IMG/VR virus record: IMGVR_UViG_3300017726_000013
Location: 1 to 43,970 of that record
Origin: a virus
DNA length: 43,970 nt
Direction: 5' to 3' (one strand)
The translations under genes were made by a program, and so were the position numbers. Positions 15,316 to 42,267 of the stretch are shown piece by piece. How positions within the stretch are numbered: position 1 is the first letter of the stretch; every line of letters begins with the position of its first letter. A model generated the notes under the pieces. It ran no database searches. It was not told the DNA's origin and saw only the letters and a program-made list of their open reading frames with translations.

Positions 15316-16746
15316 TCACATGAGGTTCTTAACCGCAACTCTTCTGTAGTAACGGTTCTGGTTAACGTTGAGTGAACCCATGCCTTGGTCGGTTCCTTGA
15401 GCGAAGGGGTTGGAAACAAGACCATAACGGGTCTTGAAGCCAATTTTCGGCTGGAAGGAGTTCTCACCAACGGCACGAACCATCTGCAGAGGAACGTAAG
15501 GGCAGTAGAACAGACCTGCGTCATAGGGGGAAGAACCCTTATAACCACAGACGTAATACTGGTTGCCGTTTGCAGTGTTGTTAGCACTGAGGTTTGCAGA
15601 ATAAGGATCGATGTATACACGATACTTACCTTGCAGAACACCAGCGAAGGTGTTACCCGTGTCATCAACGGTAAGATTAGCGTTGAGTGCAGGGGTGTAG
15701 TCAAGCACACCAGCCATGGTCAGTGCAGAAGCAACGTCTGCAGAGCACATGATAATGTTGCCCTTTCCGCGACGAGTTCTTTGTGCGATTGCGTTTGCAT
15801 CACGCTCGATTTGGAACAGGAGACCCTTGAACTTCTCAACAGACCAACGTCCGTTGGAGTCAATGTCAAGGTCAAATACACCAGCGGTAGCGGTGTTTTG
15901 TACAGCACCTTGCTCAGCAACCTTATAGATGGTTCTGATGACTTCTCTGTTGATCTCAGCGAGGATCTCAGTGGAGAGAATGTTAGCAAGTTCTGCTTCT
16001 GCATTCAGACCGTGAATTGCCTTCAGGTCTTGTGCGAGTTCTAAGCTGTACTCTGCTTTCAGTGCTCTGGACTTAGCAGTAACAGTGACCTTCTCGATGG
16101 AGAAGTTCATCTGACCGAAAGCACCGTCAGGACCAGCACCATCTAATCCTTCAGCCACGTCGGTACGCATACCCTGACCAACGTCATAGGAGGTAGAAGT
16201 ACCAGTGGAGACGGGGTTCAGAACTGCAGGGTTAGTGCCGGACTGAGTGGTAGTACCCATACCTGAGTTAACTGCCGTAGCGCCGTCGAGCTCGTTTCTA
16301 AATGCGTCCTGACCGGAGAATGCCGAATCGGGCTCATTGTAGAATGCCTCATCGCCAGTAGTACGGTTAGTACCATAGCGGGAGCGCATTGCGAAGATCA
16401 GTCCAGTAGGACCGTTCATTGGTTGTACGCCAGCCAGGTCATATGCGACCAGGTTAGGCATGGAGCGTCTGATCAAGGAGATCAGAACGGGGTCGAAACC
16501 TGCAACAGGACCGGTAGCGGTTGCATTAGCAGAGAAACCTGCATTAGAACCAGAACCAGTGTTCATGGTTGGGGTTTCAGACAGCATTCCTCCGTGCTCG
16601 AATGAGGATTGCTCTCTTAAAAATCTTTCTTGGTTTTCAAGCAGGACAGCAGTAACAGCTCTACGATGGGGATCTTTGATCTGATCGCAACCCTCATGAT
16701 TGAGGAGAGGTGCCCACTTTTCCTGCAACTGTTCGGATTGGAACAT
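15316..16746 (-). CDS. 23: gp23 major capsid protein
   Basis: HK97-fold capsid subunit, 476 residues (T4 521). The N-terminal segment LQEKWAPLLNHEGCDQIKD matches the T4 precursor (LLNKWKPLLEGEG), and PNLVAYDLAGVQPMNGPTGL matches PNLIAFDICGVQPMNSPTGQ. A probable gp21 processing site MLSE-TPT lies at Glu57/Thr58, in the same place as FLTE-AEI of T4, so about 57 residues would be removed. The rest is beta-rich with the typical C-terminal VVTRYG-type segment (FKTRYGLVSNPFA). A 50-base gap separates it from gp22, with AAAGGT as ribosome-binding site and no late promoter consensus in the gap. It probably depends on read-through from upstream. The UUCG terminator follows. Confidence 0.97.
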   Translation of the reverse strand: MFQSEQLQEKWAPLLNHEGCDQIKDPHRRAVTAVLLENQERFLREQSSFEHGGMLSETPTMNTGSGSNAGFSANATATGPVAGFDPVLISLIRRSMPNLVAYDLAGVQPMNGPTGLIFAMRSRYGTNRTTGDEAFYNEPDSAFSGQDAFRNELDGATAVNSGMGTTTQSGTNPAVLNPVSTGTSTSYDVGQGMRTDVAEGLDGAGPDGAFGQMNFSIEKVTVTAKSRALKAEYSLELAQDLKAIHGLNAEAELANILSTEILAEINREVIRTIYKVAEQGAVQNTATAGVFDLDIDSNGRWSVEKFKGLLFQIERDANAIAQRTRRGKGNIIMCSADVASALTMAGVLDYTPALNANLTVDDTGNTFAGVLQGKYRVYIDPYSANLSANNTANGNQYYVCGYKGSSPYDAGLFYCPYVPLQMVRAVGENSFQPKIGFKTRYGLVSNPFAQGTDQGMGSLNVNQNRYYRRVAVKNLM

Positions 16747-16796: not shown

Positions 16797-17876
16797 TTAC
16801 TTACCAAAAGAACTCAAGGTCTTCAGATATGCGTTCATCGAACCAGAGTGGAACTCAGGTGATGAATCTACACCTTCAGAGAGAGTTTCGGTTTTGGTTG
16901 CAGTTGAAGTTTTCTCTGTGAAGTATGATTCCTTCAGCATCTCCAACTTTTCACGATATTGCTCTTCACTTTCAAACTCAACACTTTCGGAAAGTGATGC
17001 GAGTTTCTCCTTCTGGGTCGTTGCGAGCCCTTCAGAGACCTTATCAAGAATACCGTCAGCAGTTGCCTCAGAAAGGCGACCGTTCAAACTGATGTTCTTC
17101 TCAATCTGCTCGTTGAGTTTTGCTTCCATATCATCAAGTTTTTCTACCATGCTCTCAAGCACATCATATTTGTCTTCAGGGATTGTTACATAATGTTCTT
17201 CAAAAAGACCCTTCATTCCTTCAAGGAACGATTCGGTCATCTCAGTTTTGAGACCATGCTCAACAACGAGAGCGTTCTCAGCGAACCACTCGTCAGAAAC
17301 ATATTCTAAGTAAGAATCAACACGCTCAGCGAGTGATTCTTTTGCTTCTGCAACTTGCTCTTCAAGTGCAGCAGCATATTGTGCCTCTAATTGTTCTTTA
17401 ACCATAGCAACCTTGGCATTGATTGCTGCTTCAAAGATGGTCTTTGCCTTTTCTTTGAATTCTTCGGAGAGTTCTTCGCCACCGAGGAGAGCATTGACAT
17501 CTTCTTCGACATCATACTCTTCTACAGTTTCTTCGGTCTCCTCTTCTACAACCTCATCGACGATCTCTTGATCCTCTTCGATTGTATCTTCTGTGGAGAG
17601 TTCTTCTTCTTCTTTTGCCATGCCTTTTGCTGCTTCTGCGGGTTTTGCGCCTTTGGTTACAACATCCTTAACTTGTTTAAGGGTTCCACCAGGAGTCTTC
17701 AGCTTTGCTGAATTGTCATCTGGTTTGTAGTTCTCGGGAGTAGGACCCCCAAGATCTTCATAAGAACCAGCAACTGACGTATCCATAGGATCGGCTGCTT
17801 TTGCACTAGCATTAACAGCGGATTTAGATTGCTGTGTCTTTACTTCCATTTCTTGTAATTTTTTGCCACGAGACAT
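16797..17876 (-). CDS. 22: gp22 prohead core scaffold protein
   Basis: Main internal scaffold, assembled inside the prohead and later degraded by gp21. 359 residues (T4 269). The extra length is a polar N-terminal part of about 90 residues (starting MSRGKKLQEMEVKTQQSKSA), then a very acidic stretch (EEDQEIVDEVVEEETEETVE) and then the conserved helical core: LLGGEELSEEFKEKAKTIFE, then FLEGMKGLFEEHYVTIPEDK. Numerous (I/L)xE tripeptides (for example LSE, ALE, KLE) offer gp21 cut sites, fitting complete digestion. Tandem late-type promoters lie 33-44 bases upstream. It precedes gp23 as in T4. Confidence 0.93.
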   Translation of the reverse strand: MSRGKKLQEMEVKTQQSKSAVNASAKAADPMDTSVAGSYEDLGGPTPENYKPDDNSAKLKTPGGTLKQVKDVVTKGAKPAEAAKGMAKEEEELSTEDTIEEDQEIVDEVVEEETEETVEEYDVEEDVNALLGGEELSEEFKEKAKTIFEAAINAKVAMVKEQLEAQYAAALEEQVAEAKESLAERVDSYLEYVSDEWFAENALVVEHGLKTEMTESFLEGMKGLFEEHYVTIPEDKYDVLESMVEKLDDMEAKLNEQIEKNISLNGRLSEATADGILDKVSEGLATTQKEKLASLSESVEFESEEQYREKLEMLKESYFTEKTSTATKTETLSEGVDSSPEFHSGSMNAYLKTLSSFGK

Positions 17877-17944: not shown

Positions 17945-18595
17945 TTAGATACTATTTAAGAAATCATTGAACAGATTCAATTTCTGCTCATCTAATTTCT
18001 TTTGATCAACTAAAGTATTGATATGCTTATAGGTCTTTTCTGCATATTTTTCACGGAGGATGCCACCATCCCAGACCCAATCTTTTCCTTCCATAATACC
18101 TTCAACAAAAGCATCAGGTGCAGAAGGATCAGCAACGATATCAGCAGCAGTTGCCAACATAAAATCATCGCCAACGATGTTTACCCCCTCACGGGTCATT
18201 TTAAGTGAACCAATACCACGAGAAGAAACGCCGAGTTTTACCCCTTCTTCTACAAGAGAAGAAGCAATCTTGCCCATGGGGGTGTTCAGAAGTTTTGCTT
18301 TACCGATAAAATTAGAACCACTCTCTTTTAAAGAGACGATTTTATGAGAAACTCTGTCAAGGTTGACGGTTGGACCATCAGGGTGACCGAGTTCGCCAAG
18401 TGCTCTACCCGCTTGAATATGGTTTTCGTTGTATCTACCGACTTCCTTACGGAGAGTCTCCATAGGATACATACGACCATTACGGTTTTTAATGTTGCCT
18501 TGAAGGAAAACTCCTTCAATATACATTGATTTCCTGCCGTTCTTCTGTTCGACAAGAAACTCTACGGATTCAATTTCTTCTCTAATTAGTTTCAT
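17945..18595 (-). CDS. 21: gp21 prohead core protease
   Basis: Serine protease that matures the T4-type prohead by cutting after (I/L)xE. Visible elements: IEGVFLQGNIKNRNGRMYP near the N-terminus, a probable catalytic His in ELGHPDGPTVNLDRVSHKI (about residues 68-86), and a probable catalytic Ser in VKLGVSSRGIGSL (about 118-130). The 216 residues match T4 gp21 (212). The gene lies between the unassigned 189-residue gene and gp22. Probable local targets are gp22, gp23, gp67 and perhaps the 144- and 580-residue proteins described below. All motifs are intact. Confidence 0.95.
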   Translation of the reverse strand: MKLIREEIESVEFLVEQKNGRKSMYIEGVFLQGNIKNRNGRMYPMETLRKEVGRYNENHIQAGRALGELGHPDGPTVNLDRVSHKIVSLKESGSNFIGKAKLLNTPMGKIASSLVEEGVKLGVSSRGIGSLKMTREGVNIVGDDFMLATAADIVADPSAPDAFVEGIMEGKDWVWDGGILREKYAEKTYKHINTLVDQKKLDEQKLNLFNDFLNSI

Positions 18596-24103: not shown

Positions 24104-24328
24104 TTACCAATCTGGGTATTCCCACCGTAAGTCAGACTTGGTTTTTGATTTTGTTATTCTTTTAATCGTGCATTCTTTACACTCATATGAGAATGAAGAT
24201 GCTACTGGTCCTCTATCCTTTCTAGTTCTATAAAATCCATCGACTAAATTCTTTGTCTGTCCACAGACTCTACACTTTCTTTCAGTAAGCAGTAAGTGTC
24301 CTAACTTAATCTGCTTATCAAATTCCAT
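24104..24328 (-). CDS. Small zinc-knuckle protein, 74 aa
   Basis: I start it at the ATG at 24326-24328, which overlaps the gp17 stop by one base (TAATG); a start at 24343 would run into gp17. The product begins MEFDKQIKLGHLLLTERKCR. It has two Cys pairs, CRVCGQTK and CKEC, about 30 residues apart, giving a four-cysteine zinc site. The rest is basic (KRITKSKTKSDLRW). Such CxxC/CxxC proteins are often nucleic-acid binders or remnants of HNH-type nucleases, but no HNH catalytic His is visible. Its place between terminase and sheath suggests a packaging or structural accessory. Confidence 0.7.
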   Translation of the reverse strand: MEFDKQIKLGHLLLTERKCRVCGQTKNLVDGFYRTRKDRGPVASSFSYECKECTIKRITKSKTKSDLRWEYPDW

Positions 24329-25977
24329 TAGTGATATTCCCACATAAAAGATCTATCACCATATTCATCTGCTTTGAACCACCTATCACCGTCATTATCT
24401 ACAAAACTGTTATCGTCTAATCCATCAGACATAAACCCAAATGGTGCCATGTCCTGTTCGATTTGATTCTTCTGTTCTTCATATAATCTCTTTCTAATGT
24501 CCTGGTCTGTGAGTTCTTTAAAGTAGTCTTGTTGAACTAACCAGGCATAGATGACAAGACACATTGCTAAGTCATCGTTACATCCCTCCTCTGCCTCAAA
24601 AGAATTACTCTTTGAAATAAAAGTTGTTAACTCTGAAATGATTTCATAATCACTGAATAATAGTTTACTTTCCTCAATCATGGTTTTAAGATTGAGAGAA
24701 CCAACTTTTTTGACAGTCTTACTCATCTTCACGCCAAGTTGCGTTTTCTTGCCAGAGAATCCCTGTCCTACAATTTGACCTGCTCTACCACGCATTGAAC
24801 ACATGAGCAAGTTTTGATACTCAAGGTCATAGTTTAAGATTGAAGCAACTTGATCTCCAATATCATTTACCTCACATAAAACGAATGCATTATTATACTT
24901 CTTTGCTATCTCCCAAATAATATTGGGGAACAACATTGGTTTGATATCATTGTTTCTATACTTTGCAACAACCTTGTGTGGAAACTCTGTTATATCAACC
25001 ACAACAAAAGCAGAGTAATCTTCACCAACTCCTCTTGCAACGTCAACAGTTATTACATAGTCGTGTTTTTGATCTGGATCTACATATACATCCAAACCAG
25101 CATTACTGATCTGTGGATTTTCATATACAAGAGTTCGTAATTTGCTTGGAGCAATGAGCGTGTCAATAGATCCAAGAAATTCACACTCAAACTCAATTTT
25201 AAATTGCTGCTCTGATGTATTAGCAATTGTCTGACGTTTCCATTTTTCGTCTCTACCTGGAACTTCTGACCAGTGAACATCAGTTGGGATATATTCATTT
25301 TTATCCTTTTCGGCATCATGCCACAGACGGTAGAAATGATTCATACCATGTGGAGTGGATACAATAATTACCTTGGTACTTTTACCAGAAGTAATAGTAG
25401 GATAAACAGAGGCAAAGAACGAGTCAGCAACGTGATTTGGGACGAAGGCGAACTCGTCGAGAAAGAGAATATTAAACGACATACCTCGGACAGCACTTGC
25501 AGACGTAGATGCTGCCAATATCTTGCTGCCATTTTCTAATTCGATGTTTCCTTTATTCCATGCAATAATACCCTGTTGCATCCATTTGGGCAAGTTTTCA
25601 TATGCAGTTGCTAATCTTCCTAACAATTCTCTAGCAGTCGCTGCCTTGTTAGCAAGAATACCAATGTTCACGCTATCATTAAAAATTAAATAGTGTAAAA
25701 GATAAGATACGCAAGTTGTAGACTTACCAGTCTGACGTGGCATCTTACAAATATTAAATCTATTCTCGTGAAATCTTCTTATTAATTTCTCTTGAAAATC
25801 ATAGGGTTTAAAGGGAACCAATCCTTCATCAAGAGAAACGATTTTTACGTAATTGCTTGAGAAGTAAACAGGGTCATCTTTACATCTTAAGAATTCACGG
25901 ATTTGATCTTCCGTGAATTCTATGGGTGTATTTGCTTTTTTTAAATTGGGATTGCCAAGGTATACATTATCAGACAT
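24328..25977 (-). CDS. 17: gp17 terminase large subunit
   Basis: Packaging motor with ATPase and headful nuclease. 549 residues (T4 610). The ATPase domain has Walker A CKMPRQTGKST near residue 78 and Walker B ILFLDEFAFVP near 170, with the catalytic Glu next to Asp. The C-terminal RNase H-like nuclease domain shows VITVDVARGVGEDYSAFVVV (first Asp near 310), CEVNDIGDQ, and CNDDLAMCLVIYAW near 466. Binds gp20 portal and, through its N-terminus, the small subunit gp16. In T4 gp16 and gp17 overlap; here 4 kb and three genes separate them. Seven bases lie between it and the 580-residue gene. Confidence 0.97.
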   Translation of the reverse strand: MSDNVYLGNPNLKKANTPIEFTEDQIREFLRCKDDPVYFSSNYVKIVSLDEGLVPFKPYDFQEKLIRRFHENRFNICKMPRQTGKSTTCVSYLLHYLIFNDSVNIGILANKAATARELLGRLATAYENLPKWMQQGIIAWNKGNIELENGSKILAASTSASAVRGMSFNILFLDEFAFVPNHVADSFFASVYPTITSGKSTKVIIVSTPHGMNHFYRLWHDAEKDKNEYIPTDVHWSEVPGRDEKWKRQTIANTSEQQFKIEFECEFLGSIDTLIAPSKLRTLVYENPQISNAGLDVYVDPDQKHDYVITVDVARGVGEDYSAFVVVDITEFPHKVVAKYRNNDIKPMLFPNIIWEIAKKYNNAFVLCEVNDIGDQVASILNYDLEYQNLLMCSMRGRAGQIVGQGFSGKKTQLGVKMSKTVKKVGSLNLKTMIEESKLLFSDYEIISELTTFISKSNSFEAEEGCNDDLAMCLVIYAWLVQQDYFKELTDQDIRKRLYEEQKNQIEQDMAPFGFMSDGLDDNSFVDNDGDRWFKADEYGDRSFMWEYH

Positions 25978-25984
25978 ATATTAA

Positions 25985-27727
25985 TCAGCAGTTCCAGGCT
26001 CTTAATGATTTATTGATTCTGCTATCTGGGTCATTAGCAGTTTTAGCAGAAGTCAATTTTTTCTTCATTCCTTTCATACGCGCACAAAAGCTCTTTCTAC
26101 GAGGGTTTCCAGCTTTCTTTGAAGGTCTCTTAAGATCGCTTCCTGGATTCTGACGTTCATAACTCTTTCTTCCTTTTTCATTCAATCCACCCTCTGGGTT
26201 TTTACCGGACTTCTTTTGCCAGTCTTCAGTATGTAGGAGAGGTTCTCCTGGTTCAAAATCAGAAACTTGGAATGAGAGAAGTCTTGCACCTGGGTAGACT
26301 TTTTCAACTTGAGATTGAACGTCTGCTTTATTGGGAACAGAAGTTTGTGGGAAGAACATCTTCAGAGAGATGTAGTTACTTCTAAATCTAAAGTAAGCAT
26401 TTACAATGTTACCAGTCTTTGCTGGAACTCTCACTGCTTCTTCAATTGCTGGGCATTCTTTGTTACCATGTACCGGACACTCTTCACCTTTGTGATTGTG
26501 CATACAACCTTTCTTTTCATCAATATATTCTACCTCTTCTTTTTTGGTCTTTTTGACACAGTTTGGATATCTCTTTCCAAACATAGTCTTCATACCTTTC
26601 TTTTCATATCCCTTCCAGCACTTTTCATCGAGTTCTGTTCTCCAATCTGAGATCTCAAACTCTTCTTTCTTTGTTTTAGATTTATTACCCCAGTTGGCAG
26701 CACCAACCTTACGACACTTAACCAAAGCACCTGAGGCATATGCAGAAGGCCATACAGAATAACGAGACTTGACCTTATGGTAACAAGCATCTTTGGTCCC
26801 TGCTTTTTCCTGGATTTGTGCTGATTCTTTCATTTTCTTTGGTTTGTCAGTTGAAACGTAAGTTGGTTTTGCTGCTCCTGTTTTTTGTGGTTGACCTGGA
26901 TCAGCAGATCTCTTCCTTCTTTGAGCAGATTTTCTTTCAGATTTGCTCATGCTTGATCTCTTTGCAGATGACACACACTTAGGTGTTGACTTCTGCCCTG
27001 GTTGGCGAGCACAGGGTTTACCTGATACAACTTGAACCCAACCTTTCTTACCATCTTTTGATTTGGACTTACCAAACCAATCACGGAGACCTTCTTCACT
27101 TATACCATTACCACCGTTTCCGTTACCATTACCACCATTACCATTACCATTACCGTTTCCATTGCCGTTACCATTTTTCTTGGTATCATCAACGGAATGA
27201 CCATTCTCTTTACGAAGATAACCAGAGCGTCCAACCATTTTAAATCCTTTGGGGATTGGTTTACACTTCTTATCGGTGTAACAATAATATTGTCCCTCAG
27301 GGCAACGACCATTCTTTTTTTCTTCGTTTACATCACCAGAAGTATCCTTCTTATGAAGACTCTTATAGAGATGTTTATGAAGAGGTTTTGCTCTATTCAT
27401 AATCTTATCTTTTTCAGAATAATCTTGCGCTTCATTCATTTTTTTGGTCTTCTTCTTCATTGAGTTGATGAATTTTCTATAGACCGCTGCTTCTGAAGTC
27501 TTACCCATTTCTCTTGCTCTCTGTTCCATAGCAACTGCTGCCTGGATTTTGTGAGCATGAGATCTTGATGAATTGCGAATCTTAGAAACAGATGCTTTAG
27601 CGGTTGCAACGTCCTTGAATCCAAGTCCATGAATCGTGCCTTTTGGATTTTCATCCGTATAAAGGTCCGAGTGCTTTTTGGAGTTTGCTGGTTGACCAGA
27701 TTTTCTTGGAATACGTGGGTTACTCAT
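25985..27727 (-). CDS. Multi-module basic Cys-containing protein, possible internal head polyprotein
   Basis: 580 residues, strongly basic, made of short distinct blocks: 28-95 Ala/Lys-rich helical (TIHGLGFKDVATAKASVSKI); 141-175 Cys-containing (CPEGQYYCYTDKKCKPIPKG); 185-208 pure Asn/Gly repeat; 212-297 (WFGKSKSKDGKKGWVQVV, CARQPGQKSTPKC); 311-340 (KDACYHKVKSRYSVWPSAYA); 369-393 (KCWKGYEKKGMKTMFGKRYP); 408-426 (CMHNHKGEECPVHGNKEC), Cys/His-rich; 435-500 a globular beta part; 513-580 (RRKSFCARMKGMKKK, TANDPDSRINKSLRAWNC). Several blocks resemble small domains of unknown function (DUF5824/5872/6321-like, from memory) known separately in phages and giant viruses. (I/L)xE motifs, the gp21 cut pattern, fall at the block joints. 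Position between gp16 and gp17 suggests a DNA-packaged or head protein. Function unknown. Confidence 0.75.
   Translation of the reverse strand: MSNPRIPRKSGQPANSKKHSDLYTDENPKGTIHGLGFKDVATAKASVSKIRNSSRSHAHKIQAAVAMEQRAREMGKTSEAAVYRKFINSMKKKTKKMNEAQDYSEKDKIMNRAKPLHKHLYKSLHKKDTSGDVNEEKKNGRCPEGQYYCYTDKKCKPIPKGFKMVGRSGYLRKENGHSVDDTKKNGNGNGNGNGNGNGGNGNGNGGNGISEEGLRDWFGKSKSKDGKKGWVQVVSGKPCARQPGQKSTPKCVSSAKRSSMSKSERKSAQRRKRSADPGQPQKTGAAKPTYVSTDKPKKMKESAQIQEKAGTKDACYHKVKSRYSVWPSAYASGALVKCRKVGAANWGNKSKTKKEEFEISDWRTELDEKCWKGYEKKGMKTMFGKRYPNCVKKTKKEEVEYIDEKKGCMHNHKGEECPVHGNKECPAIEEAVRVPAKTGNIVNAYFRFRSNYISLKMFFPQTSVPNKADVQSQVEKVYPGARLLSFQVSDFEPGEPLLHTEDWQKKSGKNPEGGLNEKGRKSYERQNPGSDLKRPSKKAGNPRRKSFCARMKGMKKKLTSAKTANDPDSRINKSLRAWNC
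27104..27175 (-). repeat. Asn-Gly codon repeat tract in the 580-aa gene
   Basis: A hexamer-based tract (plus strand ACCATT and variants) coding (NG)n with a few GG steps, residues 185-208. Simple repeats of this type can change length by slippage, so the linker may vary between strains. Silent variation between copies shows it is not freshly expanded. Confidence 0.85.
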
Positions 27728-28158
27728 TTCTTTTTACGACCCGCACAGTGCGCTCTTTGGGAAAATCCCTTAGGATTAGAGCAATCAATACTCTTTTTAT
27801 ATTTATTACTCCAACCTTCTTGGAATTGACCAAAAGTTTTTCTAACCCTTTGATAGTTATTTTCGTCCATCCTATCTACAAACATCTTGGATGCTGCGAC
27901 CATACTATCAATAGATGGACCATCGCTTGATTTACTCAAAGACAACTTCATAACGGGATAGACATTGGAAAATCTCCACTTTGCCTCTCCAGATTCTGCC
28001 GGAGTTTGATAGTCCTGTGATAAGTCATCAATGTCTGCAGGAAACAATCTGGGATCTGCTCCTGCCACTGGACCAGAAACATCAGCGGCGTTTGAATATC
28101 CATCACTTCCAACACTATTTGTGGGTTGTTCTGATAAGAACTGCTTAAAAGATTTCAT
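27724..28158 (-). CDS. Putative internal head protein with capsid-targeting-like N-terminus
   Basis: 144 residues. The first ten, MKSFKQFLSE, follow the plan of the T4 capsid-targeting sequence (MKTYQEFIAE in the internal proteins): Met-Lys, aromatic, basic/acidic pair, Phe-(I/L)-x-Glu, with a predicted gp21 cut after Glu10. The LSE tripeptide also occurs at the probable processing site of this phage's gp23. The body is polar (SVGSDGYSNAADVSGPVAGA), has a helical part (IDSMVAASKMFVDRMDENNY), and ends basic with two Cys (DCSNPKGFSQRAHCAGRKKK). If the reading is right, it is packaged in the head and may be injected with DNA. It overlaps both neighbours by 4 bases. No known family is assigned. 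Confidence 0.7.
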   Translation of the reverse strand: MKSFKQFLSEQPTNSVGSDGYSNAADVSGPVAGADPRLFPADIDDLSQDYQTPAESGEAKWRFSNVYPVMKLSLSKSSDGPSIDSMVAASKMFVDRMDENNYQRVRKTFGQFQEGWSNKYKKSIDCSNPKGFSQRAHCAGRKKK

Positions 28159-30095
28159 ACTTTTGTTAGCGTCTTTGAAATTTTAAATATCGTTGATGAA
28201 CTAGAACTTGGAGTTGCTCTAACTCTCACATTACCAGAGTTAATGTCTGCATCAAATGTTGCAAGAGAACTAGATGTTGTTTTTATTGTCCCAAATTCTG
28301 ACAGATAAACATTAGTTCCGTCGTGCAAAACGTTTAGTGTTGTCACCTGATATGATGTTCCTTGCGTTATTTGAATTTGATATTGTGCAGATCTAAAGAT
28401 ACTTGCACTAAAAGTATCTATATTAGACTCAGATGTAGTAGTAGTTGTCGCTGTTGCAGCTTCAAGTTTTATTATTGTGGTCTGACTACCAGCACCAATT
28501 TCTAAACCACTTCTAGCAGTGGCAATACCAATTGAATCAACATAAGTTACATCATCATAAGTTATTGTTCCACCAACACTCAGATTTCCAGTAAGAGTAA
28601 GACTAACTCCGGTTGCACCATCTGCTAATACTGTTGCTTCTCCAGTACCAGAAAGTGCTGTGCTTGCAATTCCAACCCACTTTGATCCGTTATAGATTAA
28701 AAGTTTATCTGTACCTATTCCTGTATCAAAACTTACATCATCAAGGTCTTTGATGAATCCAGCACCACCGCCACCAATGGTATAAAGTTGCTGTTGAATT
28801 CTATTGATGAATAACTTGTAGTGCTTCGCTAGATCTTCATGTGTAGCAAAGTTTTGATCAGTTGGAGTTAGGGGGTCAATATTAGACTCACTAGGATCAG
28901 GTTGAATAGGTCTGCTATTGATCTCTTCTTTTAAGACCTCTTGTTTACCCCTAATCTCTTCAACTATAATTTTTAAGGATCTGAGTCCATCTTTAAATTC
29001 ATCTCTTACATCACTAATTTGTTTATCATAATATTTTACTTCAGGTAATTCTGAGATTTCCTTCTTTAAATCATTAAAATATCCCAGAAGCAGTTCATCA
29101 GTTTTTACACTTTCTCTGTTTACTTCTTTAAGATCTTTCTTAAGTGTCTGTTTAAGAAGATTATACTCACCGAGTAGTTGCTTCTTTAATTTTCTATCAT
29201 CATCTTTAAACTCTTTATGATGACCCCACATACGCATGGAGGTCTCTTTGATTTCTTTCCAAATCTTTTCTTTTTCTGTATCAAACCTAGTATTGATACT
29301 TTCTCTTAATTCATTAAACTCAGTTCTAGTTTCAAATTCTTTTTTATCAAAGTGTTCTTCAATTCTATCCAGGTCATATTCAACCTTACCTCTCAGTCCC
29401 TCAACAGCATCATGGACTTTAACAAAATCATCATCGATGACACTGAAGGTCTTTCCAATCCATGAGAAATCAGGGACTTCATTTACCTCATTGACCCACT
29501 TGGGGAATGTAGGAATTTGATCTTGTACTTCTTGAACTGCTATTCTAAGAGACTGAATATCTTCTTCATAATATTTTGGTTCAGGTAATTCCTCAATATT
29601 CTGATTTACCTGCTCAAGGCGTTGTTCTAATATACTGATTTGATCGTCATAATATTTTATTTCTGGTATATCTGCAGCATTCTTTTCTATTACTTCTTTT
29701 ACAAGATCAATCTGTTTACAGATTGCCTCTATCTCTGTTTCATAGTATCTAACCTCAGGTATCTCATCTCTTACCTGATTAATTTGTTCTGTTAGATTTT
29801 CTAATTCTTTATCGTAATACTTTATTTCCGGGATGTCTGGGATGTCTTTTCTAACATCGTTAATCAGACGAATTAATTCTGGGAATGGTGGAATTATATC
29901 TTTTACTTCCGCAAAAGTATTTCCATCAGCATCCTCTATAGTTTGAACTGCTTCTTCTATCTCTTCTTCTTCAATATAATCCTCAACAGAAGGTAATTCC
30001 GTTTTAACTTCTTCTGCTAAGTAATCTTCGACTGACGGTAAATCATTTAGATCTACAATATAATCATCAATTGAAGGTAAATCCTCTTTTGACAT
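28155..30095 (-). CDS. Coiled-coil fibre-like virion protein with repeated LPSVEDY and PEIKYYD motifs
   Basis: 646 residues in three zones. Residues 6-41 carry three copies of an acidic LPS(I/V)(D/E)DY motif (LPSIDDYI, LPSVEDYL, LPSVEDYI). Residues 84-357 hold five copies of PE(I/V/P)(K/R)YY(D/E) at about 89, 113, 144, 171 and 351, alternating with amphipathic helices that read as coiled coil (EQINQVRDEIPE, ISILEQRLEQVNQNIEE). Residues 400-646 are Gly/Ser/Thr-rich beta structure, with a C-terminal block (IFRSAQYQIQITQGTSYQVT) that I recall at the ends of other cyanophage virion proteins. The plan (anchor, long stalk, beta head) suits a fibre or whisker. It starts 42 bases after a late-type element and lies between gp16 and the 144-residue gene. 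Function inferred. Confidence 0.72.
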   Translation of the reverse strand: MSKEDLPSIDDYIVDLNDLPSVEDYLAEEVKTELPSVEDYIEEEEIEEAVQTIEDADGNTFAEVKDIIPPFPELIRLINDVRKDIPDIPEIKYYDKELENLTEQINQVRDEIPEVRYYETEIEAICKQIDLVKEVIEKNAADIPEIKYYDDQISILEQRLEQVNQNIEELPEPKYYEEDIQSLRIAVQEVQDQIPTFPKWVNEVNEVPDFSWIGKTFSVIDDDFVKVHDAVEGLRGKVEYDLDRIEEHFDKKEFETRTEFNELRESINTRFDTEKEKIWKEIKETSMRMWGHHKEFKDDDRKLKKQLLGEYNLLKQTLKKDLKEVNRESVKTDELLLGYFNDLKKEISELPEVKYYDKQISDVRDEFKDGLRSLKIIVEEIRGKQEVLKEEINSRPIQPDPSESNIDPLTPTDQNFATHEDLAKHYKLFINRIQQQLYTIGGGGAGFIKDLDDVSFDTGIGTDKLLIYNGSKWVGIASTALSGTGEATVLADGATGVSLTLTGNLSVGGTITYDDVTYVDSIGIATARSGLEIGAGSQTTIIKLEAATATTTTTSESNIDTFSASIFRSAQYQIQITQGTSYQVTTLNVLHDGTNVYLSEFGTIKTTSSSLATFDADINSGNVRVRATPSSSSSTIFKISKTLTKV

Positions 30096-30136: not shown

Positions 30137-30562
30137 TTATTTATTGTCCTTTTGACTTTCACTCTTTAATAATTTTGCAAGATCTGCTGTAGATCCTACA
30201 AATAGAGCGTTGGTTACATTCGTTGGTCCCTTGGCGGATTCTTCATTGACATCCTTAAGTTCTTTCTGTAACTTCATTAACTTATCAGTTGCATCAGCGA
30301 CGTTTTTAATTAACTGACCAGCAACTTCATATGCTCTTGGCATTTCACTTTCTTGCGCTAACTCTAAGATACCATTGAGTGCCTCTTGTCCTTTCTCAAT
30401 GATACTGTAAAGATTACCACGAGTGTACTCATAATCTTTTTTTACATCATCTACAGATTCTCTCACCTTTTCAATTTTGTCTTTAACAACTTCAGATTGA
30501 ACAACATCTGCTGAGACATTGAACTCATCATTTAATTCGTTAAATTGCTTTGTCATTTTCAT
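30137..30562 (-). CDS. 16: gp16 terminase small subunit
   Basis: Recognises phage DNA and stimulates the gp17 ATPase. 141 residues (T4 164). The central part DYEYTRGNLYSIIEKGQEAL, then ELAQESEMPRAYEVAGQLIK, then KLMKLQKELKDV, aligns with the T4 gp16 helical core (DYGVVRRNMHFQQQ, AKNADSPRHMEVF, EILKLHKDMKDI). The C-terminal VTNALFVGSTADLAKLL matches IQNATVFMGSPTELM. It overlaps gp15 by 4 bases (ATGA), as part of the neck/packaging run. The gene is complete. The spacing from gp17 is unusual (see findings). Confidence 0.9.
   Translation of the reverse strand: MKMTKQFNELNDEFNVSADVVQSEVVKDKIEKVRESVDDVKKDYEYTRGNLYSIIEKGQEALNGILELAQESEMPRAYEVAGQLIKNVADATDKLMKLQKELKDVNEESAKGPTNVTNALFVGSTADLAKLLKSESQKDNK
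30138..30145 (-). promoter_or_regulatory. Late-type promoter (AATAAATA) at the gp16 stop
   Basis: The minus strand reads GACAATAAATAAT. The octamer overlaps the gp16 stop and lies 42 bases before the 646-residue gene, a little farther than the others. Confidence 0.5.
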
Positions 30563-37600: not shown

Positions 37601-40600
37601 TTTCCTTGACCTGGAACTTGAACTTGACCAGGAGTTCCTAAGAATGTTTCAACTGCAGTTGGAGAAACTTGGGACAGATATGGATTATTTCTATAGACTT
37701 GAGTAGGAGCATTGAATGGACCTTCTTTATGATTGGCTTGAGCAACTCTAAATCTAATTGCAGGTGTTTTAGATCCTCTGTTTCCTAAACCAGTGCCCTC
37801 CATTTTACCAAAAACTGTCTCTCCAACCTGAAATACACCAGAAGTCATTGTAATTTCTAACAACTTTGGAACACAATACTTACTTACATCTCTAGAGTCA
37901 AAGAATGGATATATTCTAGTAAGAGGTCTTACTTTATTAGCGACAAATTGTATGTTTCTAGAGCGCATTAATGCGATGAGATCTCTACTAATAACTCTGT
38001 CACCCATTGAAGTTTGATCGAATCTCTCAGTAATAAGAGTTTTCTGACCTCTTCTATTATCGGTTCCAATTCTGAATGTATCAGTTATGGTGTCTTGGAA
38101 AGTTGTGGTTGTGGAAGATTCAGTCCAAGTGCGAGTCAACCTTCTTCCTCCACGTCCTTGTTGATGACGTTCTCTAACAACAGTTCTTGCTCCTCCACCA
38201 CCAGGACGAGTCTCTGTTCTAGTTCCACCATCTCTTTGAGTTTGCTCTGTTCCAGTCCATGTGGTTTGCCAAGAATTCCATTGAACAGGGAAGAATCCAG
38301 TTTGTGGATCAGCTTCACCAAATCGTCTTGTGGCTTTTGCCATTTCTTCTGCATAATTACCCTCAGTTTGGACAATTTTTGCTTCAACTCTTGCAGTATC
38401 AACCCATGTATCTGATGAAGGACTTAGTTCAACAGATGCTTGCCAAAAACTAACTAAGAAAGGTGTTATACTTTCAGTTCTTGTGGCAAAGTTTTGCTTC
38501 AACCACTCAATTTCTGTATAATCTAGGGTAATAATATCAGAAGAACGCTTAATATTTTCTCCATCAGGTGCCGTAAATCCAAGATCAGTTTGTGTAGTGA
38601 CACCCTCTACAGGTTCAACTGTTAAGTCAATAGAGTTTGTAAAGTGCCTTGGACGCAATTCTCTGCTTTGAACGTCTAAAGAATTGTTTATTGGAGCATT
38701 GGTATCTTGTGGTAAAAGAGTGGTAAAATCATCAACAAAGAAACCAGACTTAAATCTGTTTAACCCCTCAGAGTCAGCGACAAATAAACTCTCAGTATTA
38801 ACCTCTAATAAAGATAAAGTGGTATAGTATTCTAAACTTCTAATTCTATCCTCAAGTTTTTTGATATCGGACATGCGATATCTCTTATGCTCTAAGAAAG
38901 ATACGGTTGCATCCTCTGTAGAGAGAAGATATGGTTGTAATTTTACTGTAGCAATTTCTAATGCGTCATCTAGTGGAACTGGTCTTTCAAAGTTTTCTGA
39001 TGGAGCACCTTGTTGAACCTGAAGTCTTCCATTTTTTGTCATGAAGATTCTATCATATCTTCCAAGATAGAATGAAAAATCAAGGTTAATTGATTCATCA
39101 GACGCTAAAATATTTGCTACAGAATTACCACTACCATTGTATGATCTTCCTAAGAATTCCAATGGAGATCTAGAACTCTCTGAAACTGTATAATCAGAAA
39201 CTCTTGGTCTAATATCAATTAGATCAGTATTTCTTTCTCCATTGACAGTTTGAATCTCAAGATCATAATCGAATGATTCATAAGAATTTTTGGTGATTAA
39301 ATCTCCATCATCAGTGTCCTCGAAATATGCATTAGCAAAATATACTTTTAATTGTCTAGTTGGTGGTCTCGCATTAGACTTTCTTTTTAAGAAACCTTGA
39401 CCATAGATAGATGATTTCTGTCCAGTATTAAATTCAAAGTGATTTGAAATTGCTCTACTAAGAGTGTTTAATGTCGTCAGAGTTGCAGTGATATTTGACT
39501 CAGAAAAGACTATTGTTTCTCCCTCAGTGAAGTTTATATCAGTTCTAGGAACATATGTAATTTGACTATCAGTTAGTTTTTCTGTATATACTGCTCTAGC
39601 GCCAGATGATTGACCTACTATAAACTCACCAACAATTAAATCTGAAGTTTTACCTGTAAAACCGCTTATAGCAGATAATGTTGCTTGGGGTGCAGATGCT
39701 GCAGATGTATTTGTAGATTCATAAACACCAAGTATTCTGATAATATCTGGTTTGTTCAGAGAAATTCTTTCATCTTCAACTCTAGTACCAAACGGGAAAT
39801 TACCAAAAGTCAAACCATTGTTTAAAGTTGTGCTTCCTGTTCCTGCACCAGAATTGATTGATTTGTCAACAACTAAAGTGTTTACTCTATTCTGTCTTTT
39901 AATTTTTTCTTTTAAACTAGACTTTCTTAAAGTTACAAAAAGAGTTGCTCCAGTATCATTAGCACCTAAGTTATTAATCTGAAGTTCTTTTCCACCATTA
40001 GTGAATGAGAATCTATCTGCGGTTAATTCCTCAGTTGCACCATTAGATCTGATTAATGTATATCTTTCTTCATCAAACGCCAAGAACGTTTCATTTGCAC
40101 CTGCAGTAACTACAGCAGAAAGTTTGTTGGTTGCAATATTGACAGTGAATGTTTTTCTAATTATAATATTAGAAGAAATTAAATCAACATCAGATATAAA
40201 CTGCTTTGGCATTGTTGTGTACAGTGCATTTGCATCAAGATCCTCAGCAGATGCTGATAATTTTGTACCAACAATTTTTAAATCATTAATTGTTCTAGCA
40301 GTTGGTGGGAGATCTCCGTCTAAAACTCCAGTAACTGTAGTAACACCAGTGACAGTAACATCACCGGCATTAACACTAGTAACTCTTGCACCAATTGGAG
40401 TAGCAGAATCAGTAGTTGTGAACTTTAAAATACTTCCAACTTTTACTTTAGATAAAAAATTAGAAGCGGCAGCTGCGGTAATTTTAGGAGAACCAGCACC
40501 AACTGTCGCTGTAATTGAAGATACTCCAACATTTACTAAGGTATCCAGTACAGTATCAGCAGTAAATGTTACCGCAGCACCAATGCCTCCAGGTAAACTT

Positions 40601-42267
40601 GGACCACCGTAGACTGATTTGATATCAGATATTCCAGCAGATGTTATTGCAATAGCAACCCTAGAGTTTTCAATACCATCAAAAATTAGTGGTTCATTGA
40701 GTACAAAATCACCACTTCTTTCATATACTGTTAAAGCTGCTCCAACAGAAACATTTTCTCTTAAAAATGCAGTCGCTCCACTATATTTTCCTTTGACATG
40801 AACCGGAACCGTTAATGTAATTGGTTCATTCAGTGTCATATGAGAGAATGTTTGAATATCATATAGTTGAAGATCCCACTGATTAACATCCGCATTAGTA
40901 GCACTGTATGATCCACTTTCCAGTGCAAAATCATACACTCTAGCTAGACCAATTTCTTTTCCAGATAAAGTCTCTGAACTAGATCCAACTCTCCTATCTC
41001 TTAAACTTAAAATATAAGTATTACCAATTCCTGTTGTCGGTGCACCGAAAACTTTATTTGTTTTAAAAGTTGCTCCAGTATTAAAAATAATTTCTTGTTT
41101 TTCTAGTTTTTTAGTTGTTCTTGGTTTTGATACATCAAGATATGTGGTATTAATTGTTTCTACTTCATATCCTTTTACGAAAGCTTTACCTGGAGAAATT
41201 TCATACAGAGCAAGATCCTCAGATGCTAAAGATCCACCCTGAGTAAATCTTCCTTCTGTATATACCCCATTAGTGCTAACGCCATCGTCTAACGAGTCTC
41301 TAACAGTCACATCAAACGGCATGACGGTATAATCGCCAGACTCTGCATATGTTCTGCGTGCTAGTTCATCAGCAATAATGCTATATTCTGTATTTTTTAC
41401 TTGAGAATCAAGCACACCATCTCTAATGGTTGCTAATTCTATGAAGTCAGAATCATTAAAATCATCTAAAGACTTAATTGTTAAAGAACAACTAATTTTT
41501 AAACGGTCTGCTCCAGGAGAAGCAAAATTATTAAATCCTTTTGAATTATCTGTAAGATTTTCATCAGTATCTGAGTTTACAATTTCCTCTAAAACCTTAA
41601 GACCAACTCTACCACTTGCATTATTTTGATATTGAGATAAAATTAAAGTTTCGTCAGAGACATTTACAAAATTACCTCTAATAAAATAAACACCATTTGA
41701 AATTGAGAACGCTGACCCAGTTGATGTTGCATTCGTGGAAATTGTCGAACAGAAAGATTCTCCAATAGGAATGAATGGATTATTTAATGGACCAGAAATT
41801 ATATCAACGTCAGTAGCTAAGAGTTCACCATCTAAAAATGTTTTTATTTCAGAATCTTGAACACCAGAGGACAAATATGAAAGGTAAAGAGTTAAATTGC
41901 CTCTCTCAGAATTTTCAGACTTTAATATATTTTTTACGTATGCTGTTACACCAGAAGTTAAACCAATTACTTTTCTATCTACTAGTTGATCAATATAAAA
42001 ATCAACAGGAACACCCAAGTGAGTATTATTTAACTCAACTGCTTGATATGACCTAGAATACGCAGTGTTTCCAGGAATAACCTTTGCACCTTCTTTGAAA
42101 AAGTGCTGACCAAATCTTTCAATTTGATTTTGAAGAATAGATTGTAGACCAGTTAGTTCTCTTGCTTGAACTGGATATCCTGGTTTAAACAAGACTCTAT
42201 GATAATTATCATTAGGGTCAAAATCATCAAAATATGGAGATACATTGAGATTGGTTTGTTGAGCCAT
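34678..42267 (-). CDS. Giant virion structural protein (DUF4815-like), baseplate/fibre region
   Basis: 2529 residues, the largest gene here. N-terminus (about 1-110): NLNVSPYFDDFDPNDNYHRV, then RVLFKPGYPVQARELTGLQS, a pattern typical of DUF4815-type proteins in marine T4-like phages. About 1070-1210: LGRYDRIFMTKNGRLQVQQG, then YRMSDIKKLEDRIRSLEYYT. About 1335-1400: a Thr/Arg/Gly-rich linker (RTETRPGGGGARTVVRER, QQGRGGRRLTRTWTESSTTT). About 1960-2010: GSGY-type repeats (NAGIGYTPSSGALTYTG, NGGSGYVVGDVLGI). The rest is beta-rich with scattered SGAT-like units; the C-terminal 110 residues form a separate domain (AHINQFNDIRAFYAIGEDQG). It takes the T4 gp9-gp12 position after gp8, so it probably builds the baseplate periphery or fibre base. 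Not homologous to gp10-gp12 as far as I can see. Confidence 0.8.
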   Translation of the reverse strand: MAQQTNLNVSPYFDDFDPNDNYHRVLFKPGYPVQARELTGLQSILQNQIERFGQHFFKEGAKVIPGNTAYSRSYQAVELNNTHLGVPVDFYIDQLVDRKVIGLTSGVTAYVKNILKSENSERGNLTLYLSYLSSGVQDSEIKTFLDGELLATDVDIISGPLNNPFIPIGESFCSTISTNATSTGSAFSISNGVYFIRGNFVNVSDETLILSQYQNNASGRVGLKVLEEIVNSDTDENLTDNSKGFNNFASPGADRLKISCSLTIKSLDDFNDSDFIELATIRDGVLDSQVKNTEYSIIADELARRTYAESGDYTVMPFDVTVRDSLDDGVSTNGVYTEGRFTQGGSLASEDLALYEISPGKAFVKGYEVETINTTYLDVSKPRTTKKLEKQEIIFNTGATFKTNKVFGAPTTGIGNTYILSLRDRRVGSSSETLSGKEIGLARVYDFALESGSYSATNADVNQWDLQLYDIQTFSHMTLNEPITLTVPVHVKGKYSGATAFLRENVSVGAALTVYERSGDFVLNEPLIFDGIENSRVAIAITSAGISDIKSVYGGPSLPGGIGAAVTFTADTVLDTLVNVGVSSITATVGAGSPKITAAAASNFLSKVKVGSILKFTTTDSATPIGARVTSVNAGDVTVTGVTTVTGVLDGDLPPTARTINDLKIVGTKLSASAEDLDANALYTTMPKQFISDVDLISSNIIIRKTFTVNIATNKLSAVVTAGANETFLAFDEERYTLIRSNGATEELTADRFSFTNGGKELQINNLGANDTGATLFVTLRKSSLKEKIKRQNRVNTLVVDKSINSGAGTGSTTLNNGLTFGNFPFGTRVEDERISLNKPDIIRILGVYESTNTSAASAPQATLSAISGFTGKTSDLIVGEFIVGQSSGARAVYTEKLTDSQITYVPRTDINFTEGETIVFSESNITATLTTLNTLSRAISNHFEFNTGQKSSIYGQGFLKRKSNARPPTRQLKVYFANAYFEDTDDGDLITKNSYESFDYDLEIQTVNGERNTDLIDIRPRVSDYTVSESSRSPLEFLGRSYNGSGNSVANILASDESINLDFSFYLGRYDRIFMTKNGRLQVQQGAPSENFERPVPLDDALEIATVKLQPYLLSTEDATVSFLEHKRYRMSDIKKLEDRIRSLEYYTTLSLLEVNTESLFVADSEGLNRFKSGFFVDDFTTLLPQDTNAPINNSLDVQSRELRPRHFTNSIDLTVEPVEGVTTQTDLGFTAPDGENIKRSSDIITLDYTEIEWLKQNFATRTESITPFLVSFWQASVELSPSSDTWVDTARVEAKIVQTEGNYAEEMAKATRRFGEADPQTGFFPVQWNSWQTTWTGTEQTQRDGGTRTETRPGGGGARTVVRERHQQGRGGRRLTRTWTESSTTTTFQDTITDTFRIGTDNRRGQKTLITERFDQTSMGDRVISRDLIALMRSRNIQFVANKVRPLTRIYPFFDSRDVSKYCVPKLLEITMTSGVFQVGETVFGKMEGTGLGNRGSKTPAIRFRVAQANHKEGPFNAPTQVYRNNPYLSQVSPTAVETFLGTPGQVQVPGQGNVLPETYSSTSSVLNVDTYALSLQAQGEYFGYVAKDMVLVGQTSGAQATISSLRLMSDLGSTLIGSFYIPDPNIGGNPKFETGDKTFTLVDDSNNDQNVASTIGEQKYTAKGTLETVQEQIVSVRNAEIQIRHETESKARRDFFGSSKASTVIDSVTTETTVTEWYDPLAQSFQVLDETGVFVTSCDVFFQTKDDMDIPMTFQIRTMQNGVPTQKILPFSEIILTPDQINISADGTVPTTFNFKAPVYLEGGGEYAITLASWSTKYRVFISRVGESDLLTDEFISNQPYLGSLFKSQNASTWEPSQWEDLKFTIRRADFVQNGSLEVYNPILGEGNGQIPTLQPDSINISSKKIRVGLGTTVFGSNALEIGNTFSQQGSNATGNFVGSAGSGTGALTITNAGIGYTPSSGALTYTGVALTSITGSGQNLTANISVNNGVAVGATVVNGGSGYVVGDVLGISSLGNNPAGRNARFSLVSLASTNEIIFDNVQGDFEVGVGKTLQFTNSSGSLVTLNGANGNVTPTEIRAVGNNDGLHLIVDHKNHGMYHENNRVTISGVESDVVPTKLTSPYSADSTADLLVENSSEFSTFENIGVGTTTAGYVKIGDEILTYTDTSTGTISGITRGSNSKNYVVGTPVYKYEMGGVSLRRVNKTHVLNDATLSNPIGFDSYTIKVDMSSDGVNRSVGTNFPVLYYNETKSDGGYDIKATQNMPFEAIVPSVQNVTVPGTTISATVRTTTGSNLSNGSGQNLPVPFNNAGTEDVTLNATNYFSSPRIIASRVNETNSAILQQLPGDRSFNMSISLESSDSRLSPIIDAQRVSAILVSNRVDAPISNYAEDNRVNSIDDDPNAFQYISGENTLETSATSIKILLTAHINQFNDIRAFYAIGEDQGFTPIFEAFPGYTSNNDGSSDRVVPPANASEGFLSRDLTFKEHEFSVDNLPAFKSYRIKLIATSTNQAYAPRIKELRTITLA

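Follow-up and report, generated by a model that had tools for sequence, protein, structure and literature searches.

What does a T4-like phage gain from a gene, set between those for the two terminase subunits, whose product looks like many small proteins strung together? Cyanomyoviruses rank among the commonest ocean viruses, and the window analysed here, the whole stretch of 43,970 nucleotides of IMG/VR virus record IMGVR_UViG_3300017726_000013, is T4-like cyanomyovirus DNA; its closest record is Synechococcus phage SynMITS9220M01 (85% over 92%, 16.6-kb stretch), followed by S-SM2 and Bellamy. An earlier note on this DNA had picked out a 580-residue open reading frame at 25985..27727 on the (-) strand as a concatemer of short blocks, and we found the reading frame to be real. 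Recognisable head genes lie on both sides of it: gp23 (15316-16746), gp22 (16797-17876) and the gp21 prohead protease (17945..18595, (-) strand; Peptidase_S77, E=3.7e-34) on one, and gp16 (30137-30562) on the other. The gene for the terminase large subunit, gp17 (24328..25977, (-) strand), follows directly downstream after a gap of 7 bases, and upstream the start of the 580-residue frame overlaps the end of a 144-residue gene, P0002, by 4 bases. The gene thus lies in the interval from terS to terL, and genes for the neck and tail are close by. By position and sequence the protein is an orthologue of the cyanophage T4-GC119 protein, a family located in the gp15-gp17 region of T4-like cyanophages, and tblastn detected relatives in 501 phage records. 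Pfam covers only its last 71 residues, as DUF6321 (PF19846; residues 508-578; 78.7 bits against a cut-off of 28.5).

We divided the protein, which has a net charge of +66 and 14 Cys, into nine modules, all encoded on the (-) strand. M1 (residues 19-97; 27437..27673) is helical and basic, ending in KKKTKKM; M2 (101-133; 27329..27427) is replaceable in relatives; M3 (140-174; 27206..27310) has three invariant Cys and is followed by an NG-repeat linker (residues 186-208, in the region of 27103-27170) that varies in length. Next come the strongly basic M4 (213-300; 26828..27091), with the Cys pair C239/C251, M5 (310-352; 26672..26800), with C315/C338, and M6 (369-394; 26546..26623), with C370/C390. 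M7 (405-426; 26450..26515) is rich in Cys and His, with three of each; M8 (431-500; 26228..26437) is a beta-beta-alpha-beta domain; and M9 (502-580; 25988..26224), with C548/C580, corresponds to DUF6321. We built HMMs of these nine modules and of a tenth, M10, which occurs in P0002, and ran them on ~20,600 distinct ORFs from the loci collected to that point. In relatives, these ten combine into 79 architectures, through loss, duplication (M6-M6) and reordering (M4-M6-M5, M5-M7-M6), and in S-SKS1 they are split into separate genes. As judged by this comparison, the nine blocks are true evolutionary units, and the earlier description as a concatemer was borne out. A DUF192 domain lies between M4 and M5 in 38 of 57 aligned relatives and is absent from the window copy; this place in the chain is an optional cargo slot. 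M5 was also found at 23 loci in bacterial or archaeal genomes, all of them MAG contigs, most of them marine; we rejected a cellular origin of the module, and these contigs (L433-L455) are probably misbinned phage contigs.

The modules and the stretches that join them differ in predicted structure. We used a full-length AlphaFold2 model built with 57 relatives solely for the contrast between beads and linkers, its mean pLDDT being 52. Means over 10-residue blocks reach 60-88 within M1, M3, M4, M6, M8 and M9, and the joints fall in stretches with pLDDT below 50; M5 has no confident fold. Neither fold nor profile pointed to a function. A search with the M8 model (pLDDT 79) returned no PDB match with E<0.5, so nothing about function can be drawn from its fold, and a profile search against PDB sequences matched only DUF192 structures, the domain that the window copy lacks; of the domain search proposed earlier, the Pfam match to DUF6321 at the C-terminal end is the one hit in this copy. 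In most modules that contain Cys, two of these are invariant and no His matches them, M3 and M7 being the exceptions, and only M7 has enough ligands for the four conserved Cys or His that a zinc site needs. Two invariant Cys per module favour disulfides, and the conserved pairs suggest, from sequence, that these are disulfides. Zinc binding by the whole chain was therefore rejected for all modules except M7: of the earlier proposal of small basic or zinc-binding peptides, the basic character stands, and zinc fits residues 405-426 only. Were the chain cut at every site, the predicted fragments would carry charges of -1 to +18, adding up to +66.

We then considered the joints, where a tripeptide resembling the gp21 cleavage pattern recurs. 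The eight borders between modules carry MNE (residues 97-99; 27431..27439), VNE (133-135; 27323..27331; low pLDDT over 116-138), ISE (209-211; 27095..27103), IQE (305-307; 26807..26815), LDE (366-368; 26624..26632; E368 nearly invariant), IDE (402-404; 26516..26524), IEE before A (428-430; 26438..26446; E430 invariant in 57 relatives) and HTE before DW (499-501; 26225..26233; E501 nearly invariant, with H at P3), all on the (-) strand. The six (I/L)xE sites listed by the earlier note, at 209, 305, 366, 402, 428 and 515, are exactly where it placed them, and five are borders; the sixth, LNE at 515-517, lies inside DUF6321. Its statement that the motif stands at every joint was too strong, given this site and the HTE of the last joint, and its list of borders missed MNE and VNE. 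Strict (L/I)xE occurs at 5 of 8 borders, or 7 of 8 if V or M is allowed. As the note expected, the strict motif is commoner than in composition shuffles (6 observed against 2.1, p=0.0105), and nine sites are found against 4.8 when V and M are also allowed at the first position (p=0.03).

The motif is also kept in homologues, as anticipated. Among 356 internal joints from relatives, counted after removing near-identical windows, [ILVM]xE is present in 82% and strict [IL]xE in 43%, against ~35% and ~19% in shuffled windows; within modules, 7% and 6% of 14-residue windows contain them. Because E-rich windows in other proteins of a relative phage hold [ILVM]xE in 64% of cases, the mere presence of the motif is weak evidence, and position and spacing are what count. 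We therefore rejected simple presence as proof of cut sites and relied on position, column pattern and breakpoints. Relative to the joint glutamate, I/L/V/M reach their maximum at -2 (0.39, background 0.17; other offsets 0.13-0.27), and inside modules the same position gives 0.19 against 0.15. Columns taken at the M8 joint without selection for the motif have ILVM at P3 in 88%, E at P1 in 95% and A at P1' in 88%, with P2 free (2.99 bits of entropy); at the M7 joint, likewise unselected, P3 is ILVM in 85% and P1 is E in 81%. For breakpoints, we compared the whole 580-residue protein with all ORFs by BLAST and collected non-redundant alignment starts. Of these, 51% lie within 3 residues of an [ILVM]xE glutamate, whereas 11% of all positions do; with the limit set at 5 residues, none of 559 circular shifts reached the observed count. 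At the ISE joint alone, 23 alignments start at residue 209 and 11 at 211. Homology breakpoints cluster at the joint glutamates.

As in substrates of a prohead protease, the sites are conserved in relatives and lie outside the predicted folded parts, and the same phage encodes Peptidase_S77. Some features of the joints depart from the established pattern. The T4 rule for gp21 has L or I at P3, whereas many joints have V or M; the phage's own gp23 maturation site, LSE before T (residues 55-57; 16576..16584, (-) strand), keeps LxE in all relatives in which the site is covered (~77), with only L at P3. K occupies P1' at the M6 and M7 joints, and the M8/M9 joint is HAE or HTE in the main clade. The literature we found reports no cleaved joint peptides.

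Internal proteins of T4 enter the prohead by means of a ten-residue capsid-targeting sequence (CTS), in which residues 4 and 7 target and residues 8 and 10 set the cut (PMC9026906); in the T4 record, IPII and IPIII begin MKTYQEFIAE and are cut before A. No such tag begins the 580-residue protein, which starts MSNPRIPRK, and among ~196 multi-module proteins whose starts are complete a true tag occurs in only one or two. A chain without its own tag would have to be brought in by a bead within it or by a partner, for example P0002. P0002 (27724..28158, (-) strand), the adjacent upstream gene, does begin with a tag, MKSFKQFLSE followed by Q (28129..28158), with Y/F at position 4, F at 7, I/L at 8 and E at 10. 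After the tag comes a stretch that copies the N-arm of mature gp23 (QPTNSVGSDGYSNAADVSGPVAGADPRL; 28045..28128), and the protein ends in M10 (SNKYKKSIDC...HCAGRKKK; 27727..27810). An HMM of 77 gp23 N-arms that included the gp23 cut (LxE) matched P0002 across the cleavage site with E=1e-8, one of 22 matches outside gp23. Several small virus proteins carry such copies (GFsg..A..GPvAGfDP), sometimes with the gp23 cut site, as in the window and at L112:43622-43804 and L457:24743-25633; they are possibly docking mimics for the capsid interior. Further upstream, at 28155-30095, the window encodes a 646-residue fibre-like protein that opens with an acidic LPSVEDYxxE repeat and contains repeated coiled-coil units of the form xPEIKYYD.

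Modules of the polyprotein also occur singly behind such tags. All 68 distinct standalone M8 proteins begin MK[SNT][FY]xxF[ILM]xE; this set is partly biased, since the tag was one of two search patterns, and the exchange of I, L and M at position 8 with an invariant E10 lies outside that bias. Two 91-residue proteins consist of a tag and DUF6321 only, MKTYNDFITE|VAAWQRKEGK in S-CREM1 (138886) and MRSFGQYIKE|VAAWQRKEGK at L348, and the polyprotein of L181 joins its last bead as DINE|VAAWQRREGK, at the same residue at which those tags end. In L181 itself, the tagged M10 gene and the polyprotein form one continuous reading frame. At L134-L137 the tagged neighbour protein contains M1 and M10, a tagged protein at L285 also has M1, and at L355 the tag precedes M4. 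Thus five of the ten modules (M1, M4, M8, M9 and M10) are shared between the bead chains and tagged proteins. Where M10 stands alone, the protein begins MKTFKQFQE, without the processing pattern at positions 8 and 10, and may, to judge from this start, be targeted without being cut.

The same tag is found on enzymes. NMNAT, SAM hydrolase, kinase and Cas9 have been reported in cyanophage virions, with the question of contamination left open by the S-CREM2 authors (PMC10665884). A relaxed tag pattern, written after some of the S-CREM2 sequences had been viewed, was found by six-frame search at five ORF starts in that genome (OR473000; L458/L457): the SAM hydrolase gp6 (MKDFDSFLEE), gp13 (MKDLHSFLTE), the APH kinase gp14 (VKRFDAFLTE), gp136 (MQTFSMFFSE) and the NMNAT gp154 (MKNFSSFLTE). 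All five are among the products detected by mass spectrometry (MS), against 52 of 219 genes overall (p=6e-4). With the strict pattern, fixed earlier, 3 of 3 were detected in S-CREM2 (p=0.013) and 4 of 6 when pooled over three phages with MS lists (p=0.015); S-CREM1, whose record has no MS marks, was left out of the comparison. The MS-detected Cas9 of S-CREM2 (gp12) has a similar stretch, RFASFMAE|A, within residues 17-25. NMNAT is tagged in all three MS-characterised phages (MKSFLQFLKE|A in S-SCSM1, MKNFSSFLTE|A in S-CREM2, MRFRQFIIE|A in S-SZBM1), and most well-aligning NMNAT relatives sampled from cyanophage records match from residue 1, tag included, even at 40% identity.

Virion presence is known only for homologues of the 580-residue protein, from an MS table for S-CREM2 and a record tag for S-SCSM1. 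The S-CREM2 table lists gp137 (4 peptides) and gp160 (7 peptides) (PMC10665884 Table 3). gp137 carries M8 and M9; gp160 has M4-M6-M5 together with a copy of the gp23 N-arm, and its joints are INE, LSE, LEE and ISE. In S-SCSM1, for which 45 MS-detected virion proteins were reported (PMC9602691), the homologue gp029 is annotated 'virion protein'. That record has ~47 such tags, counted by eye; they probably correspond one to one to the MS-detected proteins, which would place gp029 in the virion. gp030 of S-SCSM1 is not among the detected virion proteins, and the tagged M8 and M9 proteins of S-SZBM1 (191 and 192) are absent from its MS list. S-SZBM1_190, an MS-detected 'virion structural protein' encoded between terS and terL and the expected homologue in that phage, proved to belong to a different family.

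We propose that the 580-residue protein is a gp21-processed head polyprotein whose beads travel with the DNA, and we put the probability of this reading at about 0.6. It would belong to the prohead core, as a chain of small Cys-bearing modules, most of them basic. Made with the late head genes and then enclosed in the prohead, it would be cut by gp21 at most joints, on the C-terminal side of the glutamate in a hydrophobic-x-Glu site. Like the internal proteins of T4, the beads so freed would remain with the DNA inside the head, and they would probably be ejected into the host; their role might be DNA neutralisation, or early host take-over or anti-defence. A location in the head is very likely, and cutting at several joints is probable; that the beads act as internal or ejected proteins is a more tentative suggestion, to which we give slightly less than even odds. 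If beads are exchanged rapidly, as happens with the internal proteins of T4, this would be in keeping with anti-defence or host take-over. The earlier note had arrived at a gp21-cut head polyprotein from the sequence of this copy; modularity, the joint signature, homologues in virions and CTS-tagged modules speak for it, and the lack of an N-terminal tag speaks against it. The occurrence of several modules as separate tagged proteins is its strongest support.

The same protein might instead be a modular virion component of the neck, portal or tail that is never cut, its beads held together by acidic linkers and the motif inherited with the modules or as a habit of linkers. The setting between terS and terL, near neck and tail genes, would suit this, as would the annotation of the S-B43 homologue as 'structural protein' and the frequency of the motif in natural E-rich windows. 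Against an uncut protein speak hydrophobic residues that peak mainly at -2 from the joint glutamate, an M8 joint with P2 free and P1 fixed, and modules that also turn up in head-tagged proteins, where the glutamate ready for cutting keeps its place; we consider this reading unlikely. A core or scaffold filler resembling T4 gp67 or gp68, which would enter the prohead, be chopped by gp21 and lose most of its peptides before DNA packaging, would leave the same protease signature, and T4 gp22, gp67 and gp68 are indeed cleaved into several fragments, most of which leave the head (PMC9026906). But homologues are still detectable in CsCl-purified virions, and beads that are predicted to be folded, conserved and Cys-paired are unlike a disposable scaffold; this alternative is more doubtful still. 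Least probable by a wide measure is a late protein made in large amounts, which would work inside the cell and co-purify with particles. The S-CREM2 authors do caution that highly expressed proteins may carry over into virion samples (PMC10665884), yet homologues were detected in more than one phage, and targeting tags are found on the single-bead versions and on the neighbour P0002.

The head-polyprotein reading has partial precedents. CTS, gp21 and internal proteins are known from T4, where IPI, IPII and IPIII are likewise small, basic and cut by gp21 after the tag MKxYxxFIAE; they are encoded by separate genes, each tagged, whereas here the beads share one chain without an N-terminal tag. 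The T4 core proteins gp22, gp67 and gp68 receive several cuts per chain from the same protease, but they are scaffold and their fragments mostly leave, whereas the pieces encoded in the window are conserved, exchangeable domains. In phiKZ and SPN3US, an S77-like protease (gp175/gp245) cuts head and ejection proteins after x-x-E, in some cases several times in one chain; these cuts remove propeptides, and that study does not describe a concatemer of small exchangeable modules (PMC10052503). Cyanophage virion NMNAT, SAM hydrolase and kinase have the CTS-type tag in common with the single beads, and Cas9 a similar stretch, but these virion-associated proteins are enzymes rather than small basic beads. 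T4-GC119 and DUF6321 were previously hypothetical or structural, and in the literature searched we found no modular or processing role for the family, no mention of DUF6321, and a link between capsid targeting and cyanophages in one T4 review only. As far as we found, neither a concatemer built of exchangeable beads nor a tag of this kind on cyanophage enzymes has been described.

Taken more broadly, T4-like cyanophages may possess a general, protease-coupled route for cargo, a generalisation to which we would give even odds. The tag would serve NMNAT, SAM hydrolase, the kinase, single beads and possibly Cas9, and the polyprotein would deliver many more beads at a fixed ratio, freed by gp21 at the hydrophobic-x-Glu joints; beads would pass between the tagged genes and the chain as cassettes, a library of ejected host-takeover peptides. 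To our knowledge, no packaging route for cyanophage virion enzymes has been known; a T4-type tag on most of them offers a concrete and likely one, and from it the exact N-terminus of each mature protein can be predicted. If our reading is correct, the head polyprotein is a new way to load many peptides at a fixed ratio, with relatives in ~500 phage records.

Other proteins of these phages share some of these traits. SynMITS9220M01 (L093:815-1417) and S-SM2 (L103) encode a basic protein of 193-201 residues with the tag MKTFAQFVNE or MKTLGQFLAE and no Pfam match, a candidate for another internal protein on the strength of its start. In P-SSM4 (NC_006884, 153340-156700) the GC119 gene lies beside an NMNAT cluster rather than between gp16 and gp17, with the tag-like starts MLSFKAYLAE and MLSFKSF nearby. 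S-SCSM1 gp089 and gp280 (L112:36858-37829 and 40562-42124) are virion-tagged and consist of other basic modules strung together by joints of the VDE/LDE type; together with S-CREM1_219 (L466:27402-29753) they are modular basic proteins encoded beside the NMNAT gene, with EEVExxDE-type joints, and these three may represent a second set of head polyproteins.
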